A stretch of DNA of 64,000 nucleotides, from positions 1 through 64,000 of the forward strand of contig NZ_JAENJG010000001.1 in NCBI RefSeq assembly GCF_016597785.1, read 5' to 3'. This document shows positions 29,385-40,558 of this stretch, one piece after another (position 1 is the first letter of the stretch; every line of letters starts with the position of its first letter). The notes beneath the pieces were generated by a model. That model was not told where the DNA came from. It did not search any database and saw only the letters and a program-made list of their open reading frames with translations. Position numbers and translations under genes: made by a program. Source of the DNA: Leucobacter sp. L43 (GTDB taxonomy: Bacteria > Actinomycetota > Actinomycetes > Actinomycetales > Microbacteriaceae).

Positions 29385-31184
29385 ATGCTGAGACTGCGCG
29401 GATCTTCGCTTCGCCGGGCCATCGCGCTCGCCATCATCGTCGTCGCTGCGATCGTGTTTCTCGTGCGACTCGTGGACGTGCAGGTGGTTTCCGCCGCCGC
29501 CCTGAACGAGGATGCGAAAGACAAGCGCGCGGTGCCCGTCGCGATTCCGAGCGTGCGCGGCGACATCGTCGATCGCGACGGGGAAGTGCTCGCGACGACG
29601 GACGAACGCTACGACGTGCAGCTCTCGCCGAAGAACACGCGTCTGAACGACGGCGTGTTCTACCGCTTCGACACCGAACGCGGCGTGGGCACGGTCAAGG
29701 TCACCGCAGCGCAGGCCTTCGAGGAGATCGGAGCGGTGACCGGGCAGAGCGGCGAGGAGATCCAGAAGATCGTGGATGACGCGCTGAGCGACAACCCGAA
29801 GTCAGACTTCGCCTACGTGCAGCGATCCATCGATCTGACCCAGCTGAACGCGCTCAAGGCGCTCGAGATCCCGTGGCTCACCTTCGAGAGCCAGCACACG
29901 CGCACCTACCCCAACGGCGCGGTCGGCGGCAACATCGTGGGGTTCTCCGGAGCCGACGACGTGCCGCAGGCCGGCGTCGAGCTGTCGCAGGACGCCTGCC
30001 TCACCGGGGTGGACGGCACTGAGACCTACGAGCGGAGCGAGGACGGAGTGGCGCTCCCCGGGAGCGTCGTCGTCACCAGGAAGGTGCAGGACGGCGGGAC
30101 GGTGCAGCTCACGATCGACCGCGACCTGCAGTGGGAGGCCCAGCAGGCGATCAACCAGCAGGTGCAGTCCGTCGGCGCGGCGTACGGACTGCTCACTGTG
30201 ATGGACGTCCAGACCGGCGAGCTCGTCGCCGTTGCGGAGGACGGCTCGGTCGACCCGAACGACGTCGATGCCTCAGACCCGGCGAAGCGCGAAGCGCGAT
30301 CCTTCACCTCGCCGTACGAGCCGGGCTCGACGTTCAAGGCGATCACCGCGGCGGCGCTCATCGACCAGGGCGTCGCGACGCCCGCGTCGCAGAACCTCAC
30401 GCCCGACTACCTCGAGCCGGAGCCAGGCGTGCGCTTCGGCGACGCGTTCAACCATCCCGAGATGCCGTGGACGTTGACCGGCATCCTCACGCAGTCGTCC
30501 AACGTCGGCACCTCGATGCTCGGCGCGCAGCTCGACGCCGAGACGCGATACGACTACCTCAAGCGATTCGGCGTCGGCACCGCCACCCAGGCGGGAATGC
30601 CGGTCGAGGATTCCGGTCTGCTGTACGAGCCGGGGGACTGGGACCGCCAGACCTCGTACAACACCATGTTCGGTCAGGGCCTCTCCTCGACCGTCGTGCA
30701 GACTGCCGGCGTCTACCAGGCGATCGCGAACAAGGGCGTGCGCGTGCCGCCCAGCGTGGTGCAGGAGTGCGTGGAGGCCGACGGCACGACGACCGCGCCC
30801 GAGCACGGCGAGCCGGTCACGGCGATCTCGGAGAGCACCGCAGCCGAAATGATGGGCATGCTCGAGACCGTCACCACCGAGGGCTGGTTCAAGGACCTCA
30901 TCGCGATCCCGGGGTACCGGATCGCAGGCAAGACCGGCACCGCGGAGCAGGTCGACCCGGCTACTGGGCTCTATCGCACGGACTACGTGCACTCGTTCGC
31001 AGGGATCTTCCCGGCCGACGACCCGCAGTACGTCGCGGTAGCATCGATTGCGTTCCCGACGTCGGGAGGGGACGGTGGCGTCGCTGCACTCACCGCCTTC
31101 CGGCAGGCCGCAGAGGCGACGATCCGCACGTTCCACATCCCGCCATCCACGGGGGAGTTCCAACCGCTCCCCACCGAGTATTGA
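29385..31184 (+). CDS. ftsI: Septal peptidoglycan transpeptidase FtsI (class B PBP)
   Basis: 599 aa. One N-terminal membrane anchor (about 10-30), PBP dimerisation domain (VRGDIVDRDGEVLATT), then the transpeptidase with SxxK motif PGSTFK (catalytic S315, K318), SxN motif SSN (371-373) and KTGT (516-519). It cross-links septal wall in complex with FtsW. RBS CGGGAGGAA before ATG. No C-terminal PASTA repeat is seen, unlike some actinobacterial FtsI-like proteins. Confidence 0.95.
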   Translation: MLRLRGSSLRRAIALAIIVVAAIVFLVRLVDVQVVSAAALNEDAKDKRAVPVAIPSVRGDIVDRDGEVLATTDERYDVQLSPKNTRLNDGVFYRFDTERGVGTVKVTAAQAFEEIGAVTGQSGEEIQKIVDDALSDNPKSDFAYVQRSIDLTQLNALKALEIPWLTFESQHTRTYPNGAVGGNIVGFSGADDVPQAGVELSQDACLTGVDGTETYERSEDGVALPGSVVVTRKVQDGGTVQLTIDRDLQWEAQQAINQQVQSVGAAYGLLTVMDVQTGELVAVAEDGSVDPNDVDASDPAKREARSFTSPYEPGSTFKAITAAALIDQGVATPASQNLTPDYLEPEPGVRFGDAFNHPEMPWTLTGILTQSSNVGTSMLGAQLDAETRYDYLKRFGVGTATQAGMPVEDSGLLYEPGDWDRQTSYNTMFGQGLSSTVVQTAGVYQAIANKGVRVPPSVVQECVEADGTTTAPEHGEPVTAISESTAAEMMGMLETVTTEGWFKDLIAIPGYRIAGKTGTAEQVDPATGLYRTDYVHSFAGIFPADDPQYVAVASIAFPTSGGDGGVAALTAFRQAAEATIRTFHIPPSTGEFQPLPTEY

Positions 31185-31207: not shown

Positions 31208-32764
31208 GTGAGTACCGGAGATGCTTTGAGCATTCGCCCGCAGCAGCCCGTCCCCGTCCCGCTCGACGAGATCGTCGAGCGATTCGACGTGCGCGCCGCG
31301 GGCCGGTCGACGGGGCTGTTCGTCACCGGCGTCTCGCTCGACTCGCGCGATGTGCGACCCGGCGACCTCTACGTCGGCATGCCGGGCGCCCAGCGCCACG
31401 GTGCGGAGTTCGCCGCTCAGGCCGCCGCATCCGGTGCGAGTGCGATGCTGACCGACGCGGCCGGCGCCGAGCTCGCCGCGGCCGCGGGGACGTCGCTGCC
31501 CGTGCTCGTCTCCGACGCGCACCCGCGCCTGATTCTCGGCGACGTCGCCGCGGTCGTCTACCGCACCGACGGCTTCTCCGCGCGCACCTTCGGCGTCACC
31601 GGGACGAACGGCAAGACGAGCGTCGTGTACCTCATCGCCGAGCTGCTGCGCGCGGCAGGCATCACCGCGGGGCTCAGCTCCACGGCGGAGCGCCGGATCG
31701 GCGACGAGGTGGTGGTGAGCAACCTCACCAGCCCCGAGGCCTCCGAGCTGCACGGACTGCTGGCCCGCATGGTCGAGGTCGGCGTCGAGGGCGTGGCTAT
31801 CGAGGTGTCGGCCCAGGCGGTCGTTCGCCACCGTCTCGACGGCCTGCGTTTCGATGTCGTCGCGTTCAACAACTTCTCCCAGGACCACCTCGACGAATTC
31901 GGCGATCTGGAGACCTACTTCGCAGCCAAGCTCGCGCTGTTCGCGCCGGAGCACGCGGAACGCGGCGTCGTCGTCGTCGATTCGGCCTGGGGGCAGCGCA
32001 TCGCACGCGAATCGCAGATCCCGGTGACGCGCCTCGCCACCGAGTACGGGCGGGACGCCGACTGGCACCTCGCGGTCACACGCCAGACGCTCGACGGCGT
32101 GTCGTTCGTGCTGCAGGGGCCGGAGGGCGCCCACTTCCGCGGAAGCGTTCCGGTGTTCGGTCGCTTCATGGCGGAGAACGCCGCGCTCGCGCTGATCATG
32201 CTGCACGAGGCGGGGATTCCGCTCGCGCAGGTCGAGGCGGGACTCGAGCAGGGTCGCATCCCGGTGTACATCCCCGGTCGTCTCGAGCAGATCACGGAGA
32301 GCGGCAGCACGGGCCCGCGCTTCTACGTCGACTACGGGCACACGCCCGGGGCATTCGAGGCGATGCTCGACGCCCTCGGAGAGGTCGCGCCGGGGAAGAT
32401 CATCTTCCTGTTCGGAGCCGATGGCGACCGCGACACGACGAAGCGGGAGGAGATGGGAAGGATCGCGGCTGCGGGCGCCGACACCGTCATCATCTGCGAC
32501 TACCACCCGCGCTCCGAGCCGCCGGAGGCGATCCGCGCTCAGCTGCTCGCCGGAGCCCGCTCGGCCCAGCACGCCGAGGTCATCGAGGAGGGCGATCCTC
32601 GGGCTGCCGTGCGCCTCGCCATTTCGCTGGCCGAACCCGGTGACGTTATCCTGTATGCCGGTCCCGGACACGAGGACCATCAAGAAGTCGCCGGGCGGTT
32701 CATCCCGTACTCGGCGCGTGACGAAGTTCGCGGTGCGCTCCGCGAGGCAGGACTGCTCCCGTGA
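31208..32764 (+). CDS. murE: UDP-MurNAc-tripeptide synthetase MurE, atypical amino-acid pocket
   Basis: Adds the third stem-peptide residue to UDP-MurNAc-L-Ala-D-Glu. 518 aa. P-loop TGTNGKTS (K136), carbamylated-Lys region YFAAKLALF (K241), HTPG and the C-terminal YAGPGHEDHQE signature are intact. The specificity loop that reads DNPR in diaminopimelate enzymes is YHPRSE here (Y432-H433-P434-R435), and the usual EVSSHA motif is EVSAQA (199-204). This suggests a different diamino acid, as in type-B walls of Microbacteriaceae (ornithine, lysine, diaminobutyrate or homoserine). GTG 31208 is taken, with AGGAGG ten bases upstream; the open frame to 30131 is antisense-like shadow of ftsI. Overlaps murF by 4 bases. 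Confidence 0.94.
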   Translation: MSTGDALSIRPQQPVPVPLDEIVERFDVRAAGRSTGLFVTGVSLDSRDVRPGDLYVGMPGAQRHGAEFAAQAAASGASAMLTDAAGAELAAAAGTSLPVLVSDAHPRLILGDVAAVVYRTDGFSARTFGVTGTNGKTSVVYLIAELLRAAGITAGLSSTAERRIGDEVVVSNLTSPEASELHGLLARMVEVGVEGVAIEVSAQAVVRHRLDGLRFDVVAFNNFSQDHLDEFGDLETYFAAKLALFAPEHAERGVVVVDSAWGQRIARESQIPVTRLATEYGRDADWHLAVTRQTLDGVSFVLQGPEGAHFRGSVPVFGRFMAENAALALIMLHEAGIPLAQVEAGLEQGRIPVYIPGRLEQITESGSTGPRFYVDYGHTPGAFEAMLDALGEVAPGKIIFLFGADGDRDTTKREEMGRIAAAGADTVIICDYHPRSEPPEAIRAQLLAGARSAQHAEVIEEGDPRAAVRLAISLAEPGDVILYAGPGHEDHQEVAGRFIPYSARDEVRGALREAGLLP

Positions 32765-34170
32765 TTGCACTGACACTGGCCGAGATCGCGACCGCCGTGA
32801 ACGGCCGCCTGGTCCCCGGAGACGGCGGAGCGGGGCCGGAGACGCTCATCGACGGCGAGTCGCAGACCGACTCCCGCGAGGTCGGACCGGGGCACATCTT
32901 CTTCGCCCGACGCGGTGAGGAGACCGACGGACACCGATACGCCGCTCGAGCGGTCGACGCCGGTGCCGCTCTGCTCGTGGTGGAGCACGAGGTGGACAGC
33001 CGCGTTCCGCAGATCGTCGTCGCCGACAGCACCGATGCGCTCGGCGCCCTCGCGACCGAGGTCGTGCGACGCGTTCGCGAAGCGGGCGACCTCACGATCG
33101 TCGGAATCACCGGCTCGAACGGCAAGACGACCACGAAGAACCTGGTCGCCGCAATGGCAGAACGCACCGGCCCGACCGTCGCTTCAGCGAAATCGTTCAA
33201 CAACGAGGTCGGCGGGCCCGTGACGATGCTCCGCGTCGCACCGGATACGCGCACGCTCATCGCCGAGATGGGAGCGAGCGCAGAAGGCGAGATCGCACGT
33301 CTCACCGCGATGGCGCCGCCGCACATCGGGGTCGTGCTGACGGTCGGACTCGCCCATGCGGGAGAATTCGGCGGGATCGAGACCACCTTCCGCACGAAGA
33401 GCGAGATGGTGCGCGACCTGCCCGCGTCTGCGATCGCCGTGCTGAACCGCGACGATCCCCGCGTCGCGCAGATGGCCGAACTCACGCGCGCCCAGGTCCA
33501 CTGGTTCGGTCTCGGCTCGGAGGCCGACGTCCGTGCGACCGATGTGGATGCATCGGCGGACGGCACACGATTCGTGATCCACGCCGACGGAGCGTCCCTC
33601 CCCGTGCACTTCCGGGTACTCGGGGAGCACCACGTCATGAACGCGCTTGCGGCCGCGGCGGTGGGGCGGGCGCTCGGGATCCCGCTCGCCGAGATCGTCG
33701 AGACGCTCGAATCGGCGACCCTCGCCGCCCCGGGGCGCATGGAGGTGCTCGGCGGACGCGACGGGGTGACGATCATCAACGATGCCTACAACGCGAGCCC
33801 GGACTCCATGAGCGCCGCGCTGCGCACGCTTGCACAGATCCGCAGACCGGCCGGGCGCTCGGTCGCCGTCCTCGGAGCGATGAGCGAGCTCGGCGAGTAC
33901 TCCATCGACGAGCACCGACGCGTGGGGCTCCAGGCGGTGCGGTTGCGGATCTCCGAACTGGTGGTCGTGGGCGCCGAGGCGCGCCAGCTGCACATCAGCG
34001 CGATCAATGAGGGCGCCTGGGACGGGGAGAGCACCTTCTTCCCCACCCAGGACGAAGCCTTCGCCTACCTCACCGAGACACTGCGCGCCGATGACACGGT
34101 GCTCGTGAAGTCCTCGAACGCCGCGGGCCTCCAGCGACTCGGAGATCGTCTCGGGGAGGCGTACGCATGA
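32761..34170 (+). CDS. murF: UDP-MurNAc-tripeptide--D-Ala-D-Ala ligase
   Basis: 469 aa. Adds D-Ala-D-Ala to complete the UDP-MurNAc-pentapeptide. P-loop [13 protein letters not shown] (K122), [21 protein letters not shown] and [10 protein letters not shown] are the MurF signatures. GTG start overlaps the murE stop. It must accept the unusual tripeptide made by the upstream MurE. Overlaps mraY by 4 bases. Confidence 0.95.
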
Positions 34171-35255
34171 TCGCGCTGCTCATCGCCGGCGGGTTCTCCC
34201 TCCTCTACTCGCTGCTCCTGACGCCGTTGTTCGTGCGCGGTTTCAACCGGCTGCGCTGGGGCCAGCCGATTCGCGTCGACGGGCCGAAAGAGCACGAGAT
34301 CAAGCGCGGCACGCCCACGATGGGCGGAATCATCTTCCTCTCCGGGTCGGTGATCGCCTACTTCGTCGGCAAGCTCGTCATGGGCGAGCAGCCCTCTCCA
34401 TCTGCGCTGCTCGTCATCCTGATGGCCGTCGGAGCGGGGCTCGTCGGCTTCATCGACGACTTCATGAAGACGCGGCAGCAGGCATCTGCGGGGCTCGGAG
34501 GCTGGGCGAAGATCGCAGGTCAGGTCATCATCGCGGTATCGTTCGCGGTGCTCGGCATCCAGTTCGCGAACGGCGCGGGCATCACCCCGGTGTCGACCCA
34601 TGTCTCGGTCTTCCGCGACCTGCCCTTCGACTTCATGACGTTTGGCCCCATCATCGGCATCGGGCTCGTGATCATCTGGGTCATGGTCATCGTCACGGCG
34701 ACGACGAACGCCGTGAACGTGACAGACGGTCTCGACGGTCTCGCAGCGGGATCCGCCATCTTCGCGTTCGGCGCCTACCTCGTGATCGGGTTCTGGCAGT
34801 CCGCGCAGAGCTGCGTGAGCAACGCTGCGGAGCCCGGGTGCTACGAGGTGCGCGATCCGATGGATCTCGCGGTCATCGCGGCGGCTTTCCTCGGCGGCGT
34901 CGGCGGGTTCCTCTGGTGGAACACGAACCCAGCGCATGTGTTCATGGGTGATACGGGATCGATGGGCATCGGCGGCGCCATCGCGGCGCTCGCGATCCTG
35001 AGCCGCACCGAGGTCCTGCTGATCCTGATCGGCGGACTGTTCATCATCGAGACCGGTTCGGTGATCCTGCAGCGCCTGTACTTCAAGGTCACGCGCGGCA
35101 GGCGCATCTTCCTGATGAGTCCGATCCATCATCACTTCGAGCTCAAAGGGTGGGCCGAGGTGACCGTGGTCGTGCGATTCTGGATCATCGCCGCCCTCTT
35201 CGTCATCGCCGGGGTGGGCGCGTTCTACGGCGAATGGCTGCTGCAGCAGTCGTGA
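34167..35255 (+). CDS. mraY: Phospho-MurNAc-pentapeptide transferase
   Basis: 362 aa, ten-helix membrane enzyme that moves phospho-MurNAc-pentapeptide to undecaprenyl phosphate, forming lipid I. Signatures: [17 protein letters not shown] (catalytic Asp pair region), [27 protein letters not shown] and the His-rich [11 protein letters not shown]. Contiguous with murF, 11 bases before murD. Confidence 0.96.
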
Positions 35256-35266
35256 TGGGAGCAGAC

Positions 35267-36775
35267 ATGAACAGCACTGGCGGAGACGCAGCGATCTACG
35301 CGAAGCTGGTCGCTGACCGTGTCGATGCGCTGACGAGTTGGCACCACGACTGGACCGGACTCCGCGTCGCGGTCCTCGGCCTCGGCGTGACCGGGTTCTC
35401 GGTCGCCGACACGCTCATCGAACTGGGAGCGCGCGTGCGGGTGATCGCGGGTGCGCCGGATTCGGAGCGCGAACGACTGCTCGAGGTCATCGGGGCGGAG
35501 TACTTCCAGTCTGCTGAGGACGAGGCCCAGCTCGCCGACCTCGCCGCCTTCGACCCCGAGCTCGTGATCGTGTCTCCCGGGTACCGGCCGGACCATCCGC
35601 TCACGACCTGGGCGGTCACTCGCGATGTGACGGTGTGGGGAGACATCGAACTCGGCTGGCGCCTCCGCGATAAGACGGGCAGGATCGCCGACTGGATCTG
35701 CATCACGGGCACGAACGGCAAGACGACGACGACCCAGTTGACGGCCCACATGCTCTCGGCCGGCGGGCTGCGGGTCACGCCGGCTGGGAACATCGGCACT
35801 CCCATCCTCGATGCACTGCGCGACCCCCAGGGATACGACGCGATCGTCGTCGAGCTGTCGAGCTTCCAGCTCGAGCGCCTGGGTGAGATCTCGCCCTACG
35901 CGAGCGCATGCCTGAACTTCGCGGACGATCATCTCGACTGGCACGGCAGCCACGACGCCTATTGGGCGGCGAAGGCGAAGGTGTATCAGCACACGCAGGT
36001 CGCCTGCGTGTACAACCGTGCAGACGCGGCGACGGAGCGCATGGTGGAGGCCGCGGATGTGGTGAAGGGCGCCCGGGCCGTGAGCTTCGGGCTCGACACC
36101 CCTCCGACCAGCGGCTTCGGTGTGGTCGAGGGGATCCTCGTCGATCGCGGCTATCACGCGGAACGCCGCAGCGAGGCGTTCGAGCTCGTCACGATCGAGG
36201 AACTCGCAGAACGAGGCCTCGCGGCCCCGCACATGGTGCAGAACGTGCTCGCCGCGAGCGCCCTCGCCCGGTCCCGCGGCGTGGAACCGGGCGAGATCGC
36301 GCGAGCCGTGCTCACCTTCGTGCCCGATCCGCACCGTGCGCAACAGCTCGGCGAGATCCAGGGGCTGCGCTGGATCGATGATTCGAAGGCGACGAACGCC
36401 CACGCTGCCGATGCGTCGCTGCGTGCGCTGCACGATGTCGTGTGGGTGCTGGGCGGTCTCCTGAAAGGCGTCGACATCGACGAGCTCGTGCGCACGCACG
36501 CGATCCGGTTGCGCGGCGCCGTGGTGATCGGAGTCGATCGTGAGCCGGTGCTCGCCGCACTGAGACGGCACCTGGGGGAGCGGCCCGTCGTCGAGATCGA
36601 CGACGCCGGGCTCGACCCCGACGGCATCATGCGGTCCGCGGTGGCGCAGGCCCGTGCGATCGGGCACCCGGGCGACACGGTGCTGCTCTCACCCGCTGCG
36701 GCGTCCATGGATCAGTTCGCCGGCTACGCCGACCGCGGCCGACGCTTCCAAGCTGCGGTCCGAGAGCTGGAATGA
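35267..36775 (+). CDS. murD: UDP-MurNAc-L-Ala--D-Glu ligase
   Basis: 502 aa. Adds D-Glu to UDP-MurNAc-L-Ala. P-loop TGTNGKTTTTQ (K152), VVELSSFQLE, LNFADDHLDWHGS and the C-terminal DDSKATNAHA and LLSPAAASMDQF motifs. Start ATG 35267 has GGGAG at 35257-35261. ATG 35255 and earlier in-frame codons lie in or at the mraY end with no site. Overlaps ftsW by 4 bases. Confidence 0.95.
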   Translation: MNSTGGDAAIYAKLVADRVDALTSWHHDWTGLRVAVLGLGVTGFSVADTLIELGARVRVIAGAPDSERERLLEVIGAEYFQSAEDEAQLADLAAFDPELVIVSPGYRPDHPLTTWAVTRDVTVWGDIELGWRLRDKTGRIADWICITGTNGKTTTTQLTAHMLSAGGLRVTPAGNIGTPILDALRDPQGYDAIVVELSSFQLERLGEISPYASACLNFADDHLDWHGSHDAYWAAKAKVYQHTQVACVYNRADAATERMVEAADVVKGARAVSFGLDTPPTSGFGVVEGILVDRGYHAERRSEAFELVTIEELAERGLAAPHMVQNVLAASALARSRGVEPGEIARAVLTFVPDPHRAQQLGEIQGLRWIDDSKATNAHAADASLRALHDVVWVLGGLLKGVDIDELVRTHAIRLRGAVVIGVDREPVLAALRRHLGERPVVEIDDAGLDPDGIMRSAVAQARAIGHPGDTVLLSPAAASMDQFAGYADRGRRFQAAVRELE

Positions 36776-39136: not shown

Positions 39137-40558
39137 ATGATCTATCCCGATCTCGAACTGGAGATCCCCGAAGACCTCGGGCAGGTCCATTTCGTCGGTA
39201 TCGGCGGTTCGGGCATGAGCGGTATCGCTCGCATGATGCACCAAGCCGGTGTCACGGTCACCGGCTCTGATCGAAGCGCCAACTACTCGACGGAGGCTCT
39301 GGTCGAGCTCGGCATCCCGGTCTCCATCGGTCATGATGCGGACAACGTCGGCGATGCCGACACGCTCGTGGTCACCGGGGCGCTCTGGACGGACAATCCG
39401 GAGTACCAGCGCGCCCTCGCCCAGGGGCTCCCGGTGCTGCACCGGTCCCAGGCGCTGGCCTGGCTCGCGAGGAGCGCACGCGTCGTCGCGGTCGCCGGTG
39501 CGCACGGCAAGACGACGTCGACCGGCATGATCGTGACCGGCCTGCTCGGCGCGGGTGCGGATCCGTCGTTCGTGAACGGCGGCGTGATCGAAGCGCTCGG
39601 CGTGAGTTCCGGCACTGGCGGCGATGATCTCTTCGTGATCGAGGCGGATGAATCCGATAAGTCCTTCCTGCTCTACGACACCGCCGTCGCGCTCGTCACC
39701 AACGTCGATCCGGAGCATCTCGACTTCTACGGATCGCGGGAGGCCTTCATGCAGGCCTTCGTCAATTTCATGCGCGGCGCGCGCGAGCAGATCGTCATCT
39801 CCGCCGACGACCCGGGGGCGCGCGAAGTGCTCGCCACGCTGCAGCACCAGGGCGGGCACGCGCCGGTCCGCACGTTCGGCGAGACCCCCGGCGCCGACGT
39901 TCGCATCGTCGAGATCGATGATTCGGGCCCCGTTCGGTTCGCGGTGGAAATCGATGCGCACCGCTACGAGGCGCAGCTCGCCGTGTACGGCAAGCACAAC
40001 GCCGTCAACGCGGTTGGCGCGCTCGCCGTGCTCACCGGCCTGGGGTTCGAGCCGGGCGCCGCGCTCGAGGCGATCGCCGCGTTCGGCGGCACGAAGCGCC
40101 GCTTCGAGTTCCATGCCGAGGTGCAGGGCGTGCGCGTGTACGACGACTACGCCCACCACCCCACGGAGGTCGCGGCGCTGCTCGACTCCGCCCGCGCGGT
40201 CGTCGGCGAGGGTCGCCTCATCGCGATCCACCAGCCCCACCTCTTCAGCCGCACGCGCATGTTCCATCGGGAGTTCGCCGAGGTGCTCGAGCGCGGGGCC
40301 GACCACACGGTGGTGCTCGCCGTCGACGGAGCGCGCGAGGACCCGGTCCCGGAGGTCACGGGCGCACTCGTCTCCGATGACTTCGCGGACGCGGATCGCG
40401 TGGCGTACCTGCCGGAGTGGCAGGATGCCGCGGACTACCTCGCGCGCATCGCCCGTCCGGGCGACGTCATGGTGACGATGAGCTGCGGCACGGTGTACCG
40501 CATCATTCCTCAAGTGGTTGAGGCGCTGCGCGACCGGTTCGAGCTCGAGGCCCGGTGA
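39137..40558 (+). CDS. murC: UDP-N-acetylmuramate--L-alanine ligase
   Basis: 473 aa. Adds L-Ala as the first stem residue. [18 protein letters not shown] at the N-terminus, P-loop GAHGKTTST (K125), [10 protein letters not shown], and [13 protein letters not shown] 39137 preceded by GAGGAGG. It overlaps ftsQ by 4 bases. Confidence 0.96.

Follow-up and report, generated by a model that had tools for sequence, protein, structure and literature searches.

Comparison with relatives of described wall chemistry suggests that the MurE ligase of Leucobacter sp. L43 most likely adds L-2,4-diaminobutyrate (L-DAB) as stem residue 3 of its type-B wall, through a shortened amino-acid pocket; we put the probability of this reading at about 0.74. 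As judged from sequence alignments, the rewriting of the amino-acid site is genus-wide and in part family-wide, and it matches known differences in wall chemistry.

The Leucobacter MurE has a rewritten amino-acid site

The gene lies within the window, which is the whole stretch of 64,000 nucleotides that we analysed, and searches of the Leucobacter genome found it as a single copy at 31208-32764. Its product matches the MurE profile TIGR01085 with 368.3 bits against a cut-off of 257.3, has the three-domain fold of MurE and carries both the P-loop TGTNGKT and the carbamylatable lysine position, as a script check of the translation established. The closest full-length named MurE belongs to a strain of L. 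chromiiresistens (91% identity). The gene and the motifs discussed below are as follows (family, 196 MurE of Microbacteriaceae; outgroup, 24 MurE loci of other families).

31208..32764, + strand: murE, predicted L-diaminobutyrate-adding UDP-MurNAc-dipeptide ligase (class A); 518 aa, GTG start
31598..31618, + strand: P-loop TGTNGKT, residues 131-137, located by script; TGTNGKT in 193 of 196 family MurE
31802..31819, + strand: EVSAQA, residues 199-204, located by script; EVSSHA at 21 of 24 outgroup loci; unrelated to amino-acid choice
31928..31930, + strand: Lys241, carbamyl-lysine position, located by script; Lys in 195 of 196 family MurE
32330..32347, + strand: DYGHTP, residues 375-380, located by script; Tyr376 in 85 of 89 family members with Glu489
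32414..32434, + strand: GADGDRD, residues 403-409; Asp405 for the Gly of the DAP type; Asp405 in 159 of 196 family MurE, Gly in 15 of 24 outgroup loci
32501..32512, + strand: YHPR, residues 432-435, replacing the DNPR specificity loop; located by script and phmmer alignment
32657..32674, + strand: AGPGHE, residues 484-489; Pro486 for Lys; Glu489 (E. coli Glu468, S. aureus Glu460) kept; Gln in class B

An earlier note on this DNA had reported YHPR at residues 432-435, where MurE enzymes that add diaminopimelate (DAP) have DNPR, EVSAQA at residues 199-204, and intact ATP and carbamyl-Lys motifs. All three observations hold. Translation, scripted positions and phmmer, which aligns YHPR with the DNPR of the E. 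coli and M. tuberculosis enzymes, agree on the loop; the script places EVSAQA at the same residues; and TGTNGKT and Lys241 are both present. Lys241 closes the motif YFAAK (residues 237-241, script check), and we take it to be the carbamyl-lysine site. Its S. aureus counterpart is C-K219 (PMC3829189, available text).

Beyond the loop, the enzyme differs from DAP enzymes by Lys to Pro at position 486 (AGPGHE), Gly to Asp at 405 (GADGDRD) and Ala to Gly at 377 (DYGH), with Glu489 and the loop residue Arg435 unchanged. The equivalog models fall short on both sides: the DAP-ligase model NF001124 scores 444.7 (cut-off 476) and the L-lysine model NF010628 scores 219.4 (cut-off 536). The enzyme departs from the meso-DAP type in having YHPR for DNPR and Pro486 for Lys and in this NF001124 score, and from the L-lysine type, defined by Asp at loop position 1 and no Arg at position 4 (DNPA in S. 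aureus), in having Tyr432 and Arg435. Phe/Tyr432, Pro434, Arg435 and Glu489, the residues that define class A, are all present. Comparison with other MurE and the Leucobacter wall compositions, both given below, make it a well supported prediction that the Leucobacter MurE does not read DAP.

Eight dcw neighbours of the Leucobacter murE were scanned by profile and named, including the following.

29385..31184, + strand: ftsI-like class B penicillin-binding protein, upstream of murE; best models under their cut-offs
32761..34170, + strand: murF; TIGR01143 above cut-off
34167..35255, + strand: mraY; TIGR00445 above cut-off
35186..36775, + strand: murD; open frame as scanned, the true start probably lying further in
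39137..40558, + strand: murC; TIGR01082 above cut-off

The rewritten loop is ordinary for the genus, and no DNPR occurs in the family MurE compared

We collected 33 named loci, of which 32 were usable (31 titled Leucobacter, one a Microbacteriaceae MAG) and one (L034) was dropped as too short. Their loop reads YHPR in 29 and YNPR in three, and AGPGHE and GADGDRD are present in every one of the 32. Among ten genomes of the genus, L43 included, nine have YHPR and one has YNPR. Because YHPR or YNPR occurs in 32 of 32 usable named loci and in 10 of 10 genus genomes, the loop is not the product of chance or sequencing error. It is ordinary for the genus and not a peculiarity of strain L43; the Leucobacter MurE is an ordinary enzyme for its genus and a clear variant for the MurE family.

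The wider family was represented by 199 Microbacteriaceae genomes, 190 of which gave 196 MurE sequences from 78 genera. Nine genomes stand outside this alignment (G005, G050, G054, G138, G178 and G189, together with G028, G095 and G124, which are split or short). A second match that was too short (L229) was left out, and a divergent second match (L230, from G091) was kept among the 196 as 'other'. The outgroup is a non-random sample, its 24 loci being among the best-scoring of 79 genomes of the order.

We looked for DNPR in the 196 Microbacteriaceae MurE and found none, and ENPR in one; the commonest tetrads are HHPR (80), FHPR (45), YHPR (19), YNPR (11), DDVH (7), HHSR (6) and HQPR (5), followed by rarer ones. 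The outgroup tetrads are DNPR (15 of 24), DDPH (8) and ENPR (1). Position 486 is Pro in 164 of 196 family members and Lys or Arg in all 24 outgroup loci, and position 377 is Gly in 175 of 196 and Ala in 24 of 24. At position 405 the outgroup has Gly in 15 loci, Thr in eight and Asp in one. All 15 sequences with Thr405, namely class D and the DDPH outgroup rows, have His at position 435. Arg435 as proof of a carboxylate-bearing substrate was considered and rejected, this residue being kept in 186 of 196 family MurE, that of Rhodoluna included. One further MurE (L228, from G013) has GHSR and SGFGDD at the specificity positions, unlike other classes. In a search for MurE on plasmids, no Microbacteriaceae appeared among the best 20 of 84 matching records.

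MurE sequences of the family fall into classes

We sorted the family sequences by their residues at the specificity positions. Class A has Phe or Tyr at 432 followed by PR, with Glu489; class B has His432 with His488-Gln489; class C has His432, Leu486 and Lys or Gln at 489; and class D has DDVH with Glu489. Among the 196 sequences, class A accounts for 75 loci in 32 genera, class B for 71 loci in 33 genera, class C for 17 and class D for seven, leaving 26 as other. Tyr376 and Glu489 covary, occurring together in 85 sequences and both missing from 98, with 13 discordant (agreement 183/196).

The earlier note had also taken the change from EVSSHA to EVSAQA as a sign of altered specificity, and this part of its argument fails. 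EVSAQA occurs in 146 of 196 family MurE, across classes with different walls. Because it is frequent in class A (64 of 75) and class B (66 of 71) alike, whose walls differ, it is no specificity marker, and we rejected it as such. The motif varies even among the 32 named loci (EVSAHA 16, EVSAQA 14, EISAQA 2), and EVSSQA is found in two of the 24 outgroup MurE. The note's broader proposal, an unusual choice of amino acid, survives as a non-DAP reading, in keeping with the 196 family MurE without DNPR and with Leucobacter walls that contain DAB.

In the genera compared, MurE class matches stem residue 3 of the wall

The walls of six Leucobacter strains, among them the type strain of L. chromiiresistens, contain DAB and have type B cross-links in the table of Clark and Hodgkin (2015; PMC4804768), and DAB is likewise found in the walls of L. 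salsicius (PMC4148977) and L. chironomi (PMC4511665). The available text of these three sources also gives Thr, tabulated for five of the six strains in PMC4804768, and GABA as occurring in Leucobacter walls, and its compositions list no DAP, homoserine, Lys or Orn. These data give the overall wall composition and the type B assignment of other Leucobacter strains.

Stem residues are described for other genera. The stem of C. michiganensis consists of Gly, D-Glu, L-DAB and D-Ala, with a D-DAB bridge (PMC9603630, available text), and the wall of Agreia, of type B2gamma, combines L-DAB with a D-Orn bridge (PMC5945732, available text). Both genera have class A MurE: Clavibacter in Clavibacter capsici (G197, named by plasmid identity over 9 kb) and in four of four genus genomes, and Agreia in Agreia sp. 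COWG (G311, named by a 160-base plasmid tag at 100%) and in three of three further genus genomes. Class A is also found in Herbiconiux sp. L3-i23 (G121), Cnuibacter physcomitrellae (G023) and Rathayibacter-type genomes (G156, G374, G431), and DAB walls are known in Herbiconiux, Cnuibacter and Rathayibacter. Herbiconiux, like Mycetocola and Gryllotalpicola below, was named by plasmid identity over 9 kb, Cnuibacter by a plasmid tag and the Rathayibacter-type genomes by the tag of a Rathayibacter festucae plasmid; the names Cnuibacter and Rathayibacter are weaker, because the tag matches at coordinates other than those of the record and plasmids are mobile. Of twelve such tags, five matched at 99-100%, one (G368, to a Curtobacterium plasmid) matched at 90% and was left aside, and six had no match. 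Three further plasmid sequences gave no name: L280 matched short stretches of other genera, and L282 and L284 had no match.

In the general nomenclature, type B2beta denotes homoserine at position 3. The Rhodoluna wall contains Dab, Ala, Gly, Hse and Glu at 0.8:0.5:0.9:0.4:1.0, yielded Mur-Gly, Gly-D-Glu and D-Ala-D-Dab, and is of type B2beta (PMC4156110, available text). D-Dab is bound to D-Ala in this wall and so belongs to the bridge, which leaves position 3 to homoserine. The available descriptions give the Glaciihabitans wall as containing DAB, type B10 (PMC7033078), and that of Frondihabitans as containing Orn, type B2beta (PMC5945732, PMC7033078). All three genera have class B MurE: Rhodoluna lacicola (G009); Glaciihabitans sp. 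INWT7 (G070, named by plasmid identity) with three of three genus genomes; and Frondihabitans (G358 and G391, named by plasmid tags at 99-100%) with four of four other genus genomes.

Class A thus coincides with L-DAB at position 3 (Clavibacter, Agreia) and class B with B2beta walls (Rhodoluna, Frondihabitans and, with its type B10, Glaciihabitans), homoserine having been measured only in Rhodoluna among the class B genera compared. Because Agreia and Frondihabitans share a D-Orn bridge and Clavibacter and Rhodoluna a D-Dab bridge while their classes differ, class follows position 3 and not the bridge. The comparison covers Leucobacter and the five genera for which both a class and a position-3 wall statement were at hand; a split of three genera against three has a one-sided chance of 1 in 20 if the genera are independent, which phylogenetically they are not. 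Pontimonas marks a boundary of the rule. Its wall is without homoserine in a table of PMC4156110, and the MurE of Pontimonas salivibrio (G027) combines the loop DDPR with Gln489; we therefore rejected Gln489 as a universal homoserine code. The literature searched, as far as its text was available, yielded no wall composition for Mycetocola (class C) or for Gryllotalpicola (Gryllotalpicola protaetiae, G112, class B by rule).

The earlier note had left Orn, Lys, DAB and homoserine as candidates, and this comparison narrows them to L-DAB. A MurE that adds L-homoserine, or its isomer L-threonine, with DAB confined to the interpeptide bridge is unlikely. Rhodoluna provides a precedent, with a DAB-positive wall whose stem carries homoserine and whose bridge contains D-Dab, and Thr is listed for most of the Leucobacter strains; however, the available Leucobacter compositions are free of homoserine, Glu489 is kept, and class A is common to Clavibacter and Agreia, both with L-DAB at position 3.

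A lysine- or ornithine-adding enzyme is very unlikely. Both amino acids were among the earlier candidates, and the retained Glu489 corresponds to the Glu by which S. aureus MurE binds the amine of lysine (PMC3829189, available text), but the Asp that shares this role is replaced by Tyr, the L-lysine equivalog score is far under its cut-off, and neither Lys nor Orn is listed in the available Leucobacter compositions. Moreover, Asp432 without Arg435 characterizes a different type, represented by DDVH (class D) in seven of 196 family MurE and by DDPH in eight of 24 outgroup loci. The seven DDVH sequences (L220, L231-L236) are diverged, with 33-37% identity to the Leucobacter MurE, have GKGHE and lie outside dcw. 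They resemble the DDPH type of other families and are possibly lysine- or ornithine-adding replacements.

Tree and gene location

For phylogenetic analysis, we built a FastTree tree with the specificity columns masked, in which several deep nodes are weak (support down to 0.04). Its 107 class A sequences (75 from the family set and 32 named) comprise 48 in one clade, formed by Leucobacter and six other genera, 52 in a second clade of 21 genera, six near the second clade (genera g67, g18 and g29) and one inside class B. Class C forms a single clade, and class B surrounds the second class A clade. The sequence nested in class B (L149, from genome G069 of genus g69) is of class A type at positions 376, 432 and 489 alike. 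Glu489 changes seven times on the tree and position 432 six times, against shuffled-label means of 81 and 83, so both are lineage markers with few independent events.

This close tracking of the gene tree is what would be expected if the loop change were neutral lineage drift, with specificity set elsewhere or by amino-acid supply. S. aureus MurE offers a parallel in which the supply of cytoplasmic lysine plays a part and specificity depends on more than the loop, since A409R, which makes the loop DNPR, gave no DAP use (PMC3829189, available text). Drift is nonetheless a quite improbable account of the Leucobacter site: the changes strike residues that contact the side chain, covary, match position 3 and show no relation to the bridge; in the masked tree, most class A sequences are divided between two separate clades, and the G069 sequence is nested in class B.

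Location, assessed from the 0.5 to 9.5 kb that flank murE on each side, differs between the classes. Class A is inside dcw at 75 of 75 loci; class B is inside at 55 and outside at 16; and classes C (17 of 17) and D (seven of seven) are outside throughout. The five Rathayibacter-type genomes examined (genus g41) all carry a second murE, pairing class A in dcw with class B elsewhere (L055-L057 with L199, L208 and L211; further loci L314, L315, L320, L321, L323 and L324), and at least two of them (G374, G431) have a third, divergent murE (GPGDTDYRV). We considered and rejected the idea that the neighbours of out-of-cluster murE form a wall-modification cassette: at L211, L323 and L324, Pfam identified unrelated metabolic genes, namely a sugar transporter, glycosyl hydrolase family 1, a LacI regulator, a DNA methylase and a lipoyl ligase beside L211 and Mn catalase beside L323 and L324.

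The class C loci outside dcw are L069, L072-L074, L077, L079-L085, L087, L089, L090, L092 and L217; three of them were scanned with Pfam and have an M50 protease gene (L069, L080) and/or dxr (L079, L080) as neighbours. One class B locus (L200) is likewise beside dxr. Mycetocola (Mycetocola zhujimingii, G136) is one class C genus. In genera g62, g73 and g55, some species have class A in dcw and another has class B or D elsewhere (L210 compared with L101 and L065; L075 with L099 and L100; L233 with L116 and L130), a mixture that suggests wall-type switches by gene replacement.

Supply of DAB and DAP

The Leucobacter genome encodes an EctB-type transaminase outside the window (G000:C1:1057393-1058622, L244; TIGR02407, 621 bits). 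By eye, its ORF adjoins an ABC-transporter ATPase-like ORF, and neither ectA nor ectC was recognised in the 4-kb stretch around it. EctB over the cut-off is absent from two of five own-genus genomes searched and present in 38 of 199 family genomes, in classes A, B and C. As this distribution is independent of MurE class, it neither supports nor refutes the DAB reading, and we rejected EctB as an independent test.

Genes for DapF and LysA were found in the Leucobacter genome, so the cell should make meso-DAP on its way to lysine, and the ligase would have to pass it over. For LysA, three genes exceed the cut-off, all outside the window (C2:387524-388837, C2:561776-562975 and C3:207963-209162); one or two of these may be decarboxylases of another diamino acid. 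Retention of meso-DAP ligase activity behind a drifted loop is extremely unlikely: it would fit the retained Arg435, an NF001124 score near the cut-off and the expected presence of DAP, but the DAP site has lost its Asp, Asn and Lys, the 196 family MurE contain no DNPR, and the available text on walls of relatives names DAB, not DAP (PMC4804768, PMC4148977, PMC4511665, PMC9603630).

A shortened pocket as the proposed mechanism

DAB and homoserine have the same carbon skeleton, with NH3+ in one where the other has OH. The far amine of the substrate is bound in DAP enzymes by Asp413 and Glu468 and its far carboxylate by Asn414 and Arg416 (E. coli numbering); in S. aureus MurE, Asn407 is in contact with Glu460 and Lys457, and mutant N407A is inactive (PMC3829189, available text). 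At the corresponding positions, the Leucobacter enzyme has Tyr432 for the Asp, His433 for the Asn and Pro486 for the Lys, and keeps the Glu. We propose that the aromatic ring of Tyr432 would fill the far end of the pocket, cutting its reach from seven carbons to four, and that His433 and Pro486 would re-brace the shortened pocket. Glu489 would pair with the gamma-amine of DAB. Arg435, with no substrate carboxylate to bind, would probably pair with the newly gained Asp405, a pairing consistent with His435 in 15 of 15 sequences with Thr405. In the cousins with His432 and Gln489, the same short pocket may accommodate homoserine; as the two substrates differ only in amine versus hydroxyl, Glu to Gln at position 489 would be a natural switch. 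The sequence changes, their spread over the family and the agreement of class with wall type in the named genera are observed; the pocket geometry, contacts and substrate of the Leucobacter MurE we infer from sequence. The AlphaFold2 model of the Rhodoluna MurE has a pLDDT of 93.1.

More tentatively, and at somewhat less than even odds, a short code in MurE could determine the type of group-B walls. Position 432, occupied by an aromatic residue or His, would act as a plug that limits the pocket to four carbons, and residue 489 would set the charge, with Glu489 specifying L-DAB and Gln489 L-homoserine; one or a few substitutions would convert wall types. The wall type would then change either by a toggle in place, as in G069, or by gain of a second murE outside dcw and loss of the first, with the Rathayibacter-type genomes that hold both classes as the intermediate.

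Comparison with known MurE systems

The choice of third residue in group-B peptidoglycan (DAB, homoserine, lysine or ornithine) has so far apparently been a taxonomic, not a molecular, observation. Among the literature matches listed (for example, the best 20 of 325), the available text contains no description of a DAB- or homoserine-adding MurE. The Leucobacter MurE makes this choice directly testable. If the match between class and wall holds, the murE sequence would predict a wall trait that is now measured by hydrolysis, the residues to swap are named, and a route is suggested for switches of wall chemistry within a genus.

The meso-DAP enzymes of M. tuberculosis and M. thermoresistibile (2xja, 2wtz, 8g6p) and of E. 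coli (1e8c) have DNPR, AGKGHE, GGDRD and DYAH, whereas the Leucobacter enzyme has YHPR, AGPGHE, DGDRD and DYGH. The L-lysine enzyme of S. aureus (4c12, 4c13) presents the reverse pattern at the loop: it keeps the Asp and has no Arg at the fourth position (DNPA), whereas Leucobacter has lost the Asp and kept the Arg. Closer systems are found within the family. The class A MurE of Clavibacter, Agreia, Cnuibacter, Herbiconiux and the Rathayibacter type share D[F/Y][H/N]PR, AGPGHE, GADGDRD, DYGH and the dcw location with Leucobacter, although they are about 53-59% identical to it, have TDF or TDY where it has CDY and form a separate clade of the masked tree. The class B MurE of Rhodoluna, Glaciihabitans and Frondihabitans, about 50-54% identical to the Leucobacter enzyme, have Pro486, Asp405 and Arg435 in common with it but differ in His432, Gln489 and Phe376, and occur with B2beta or B10 walls.
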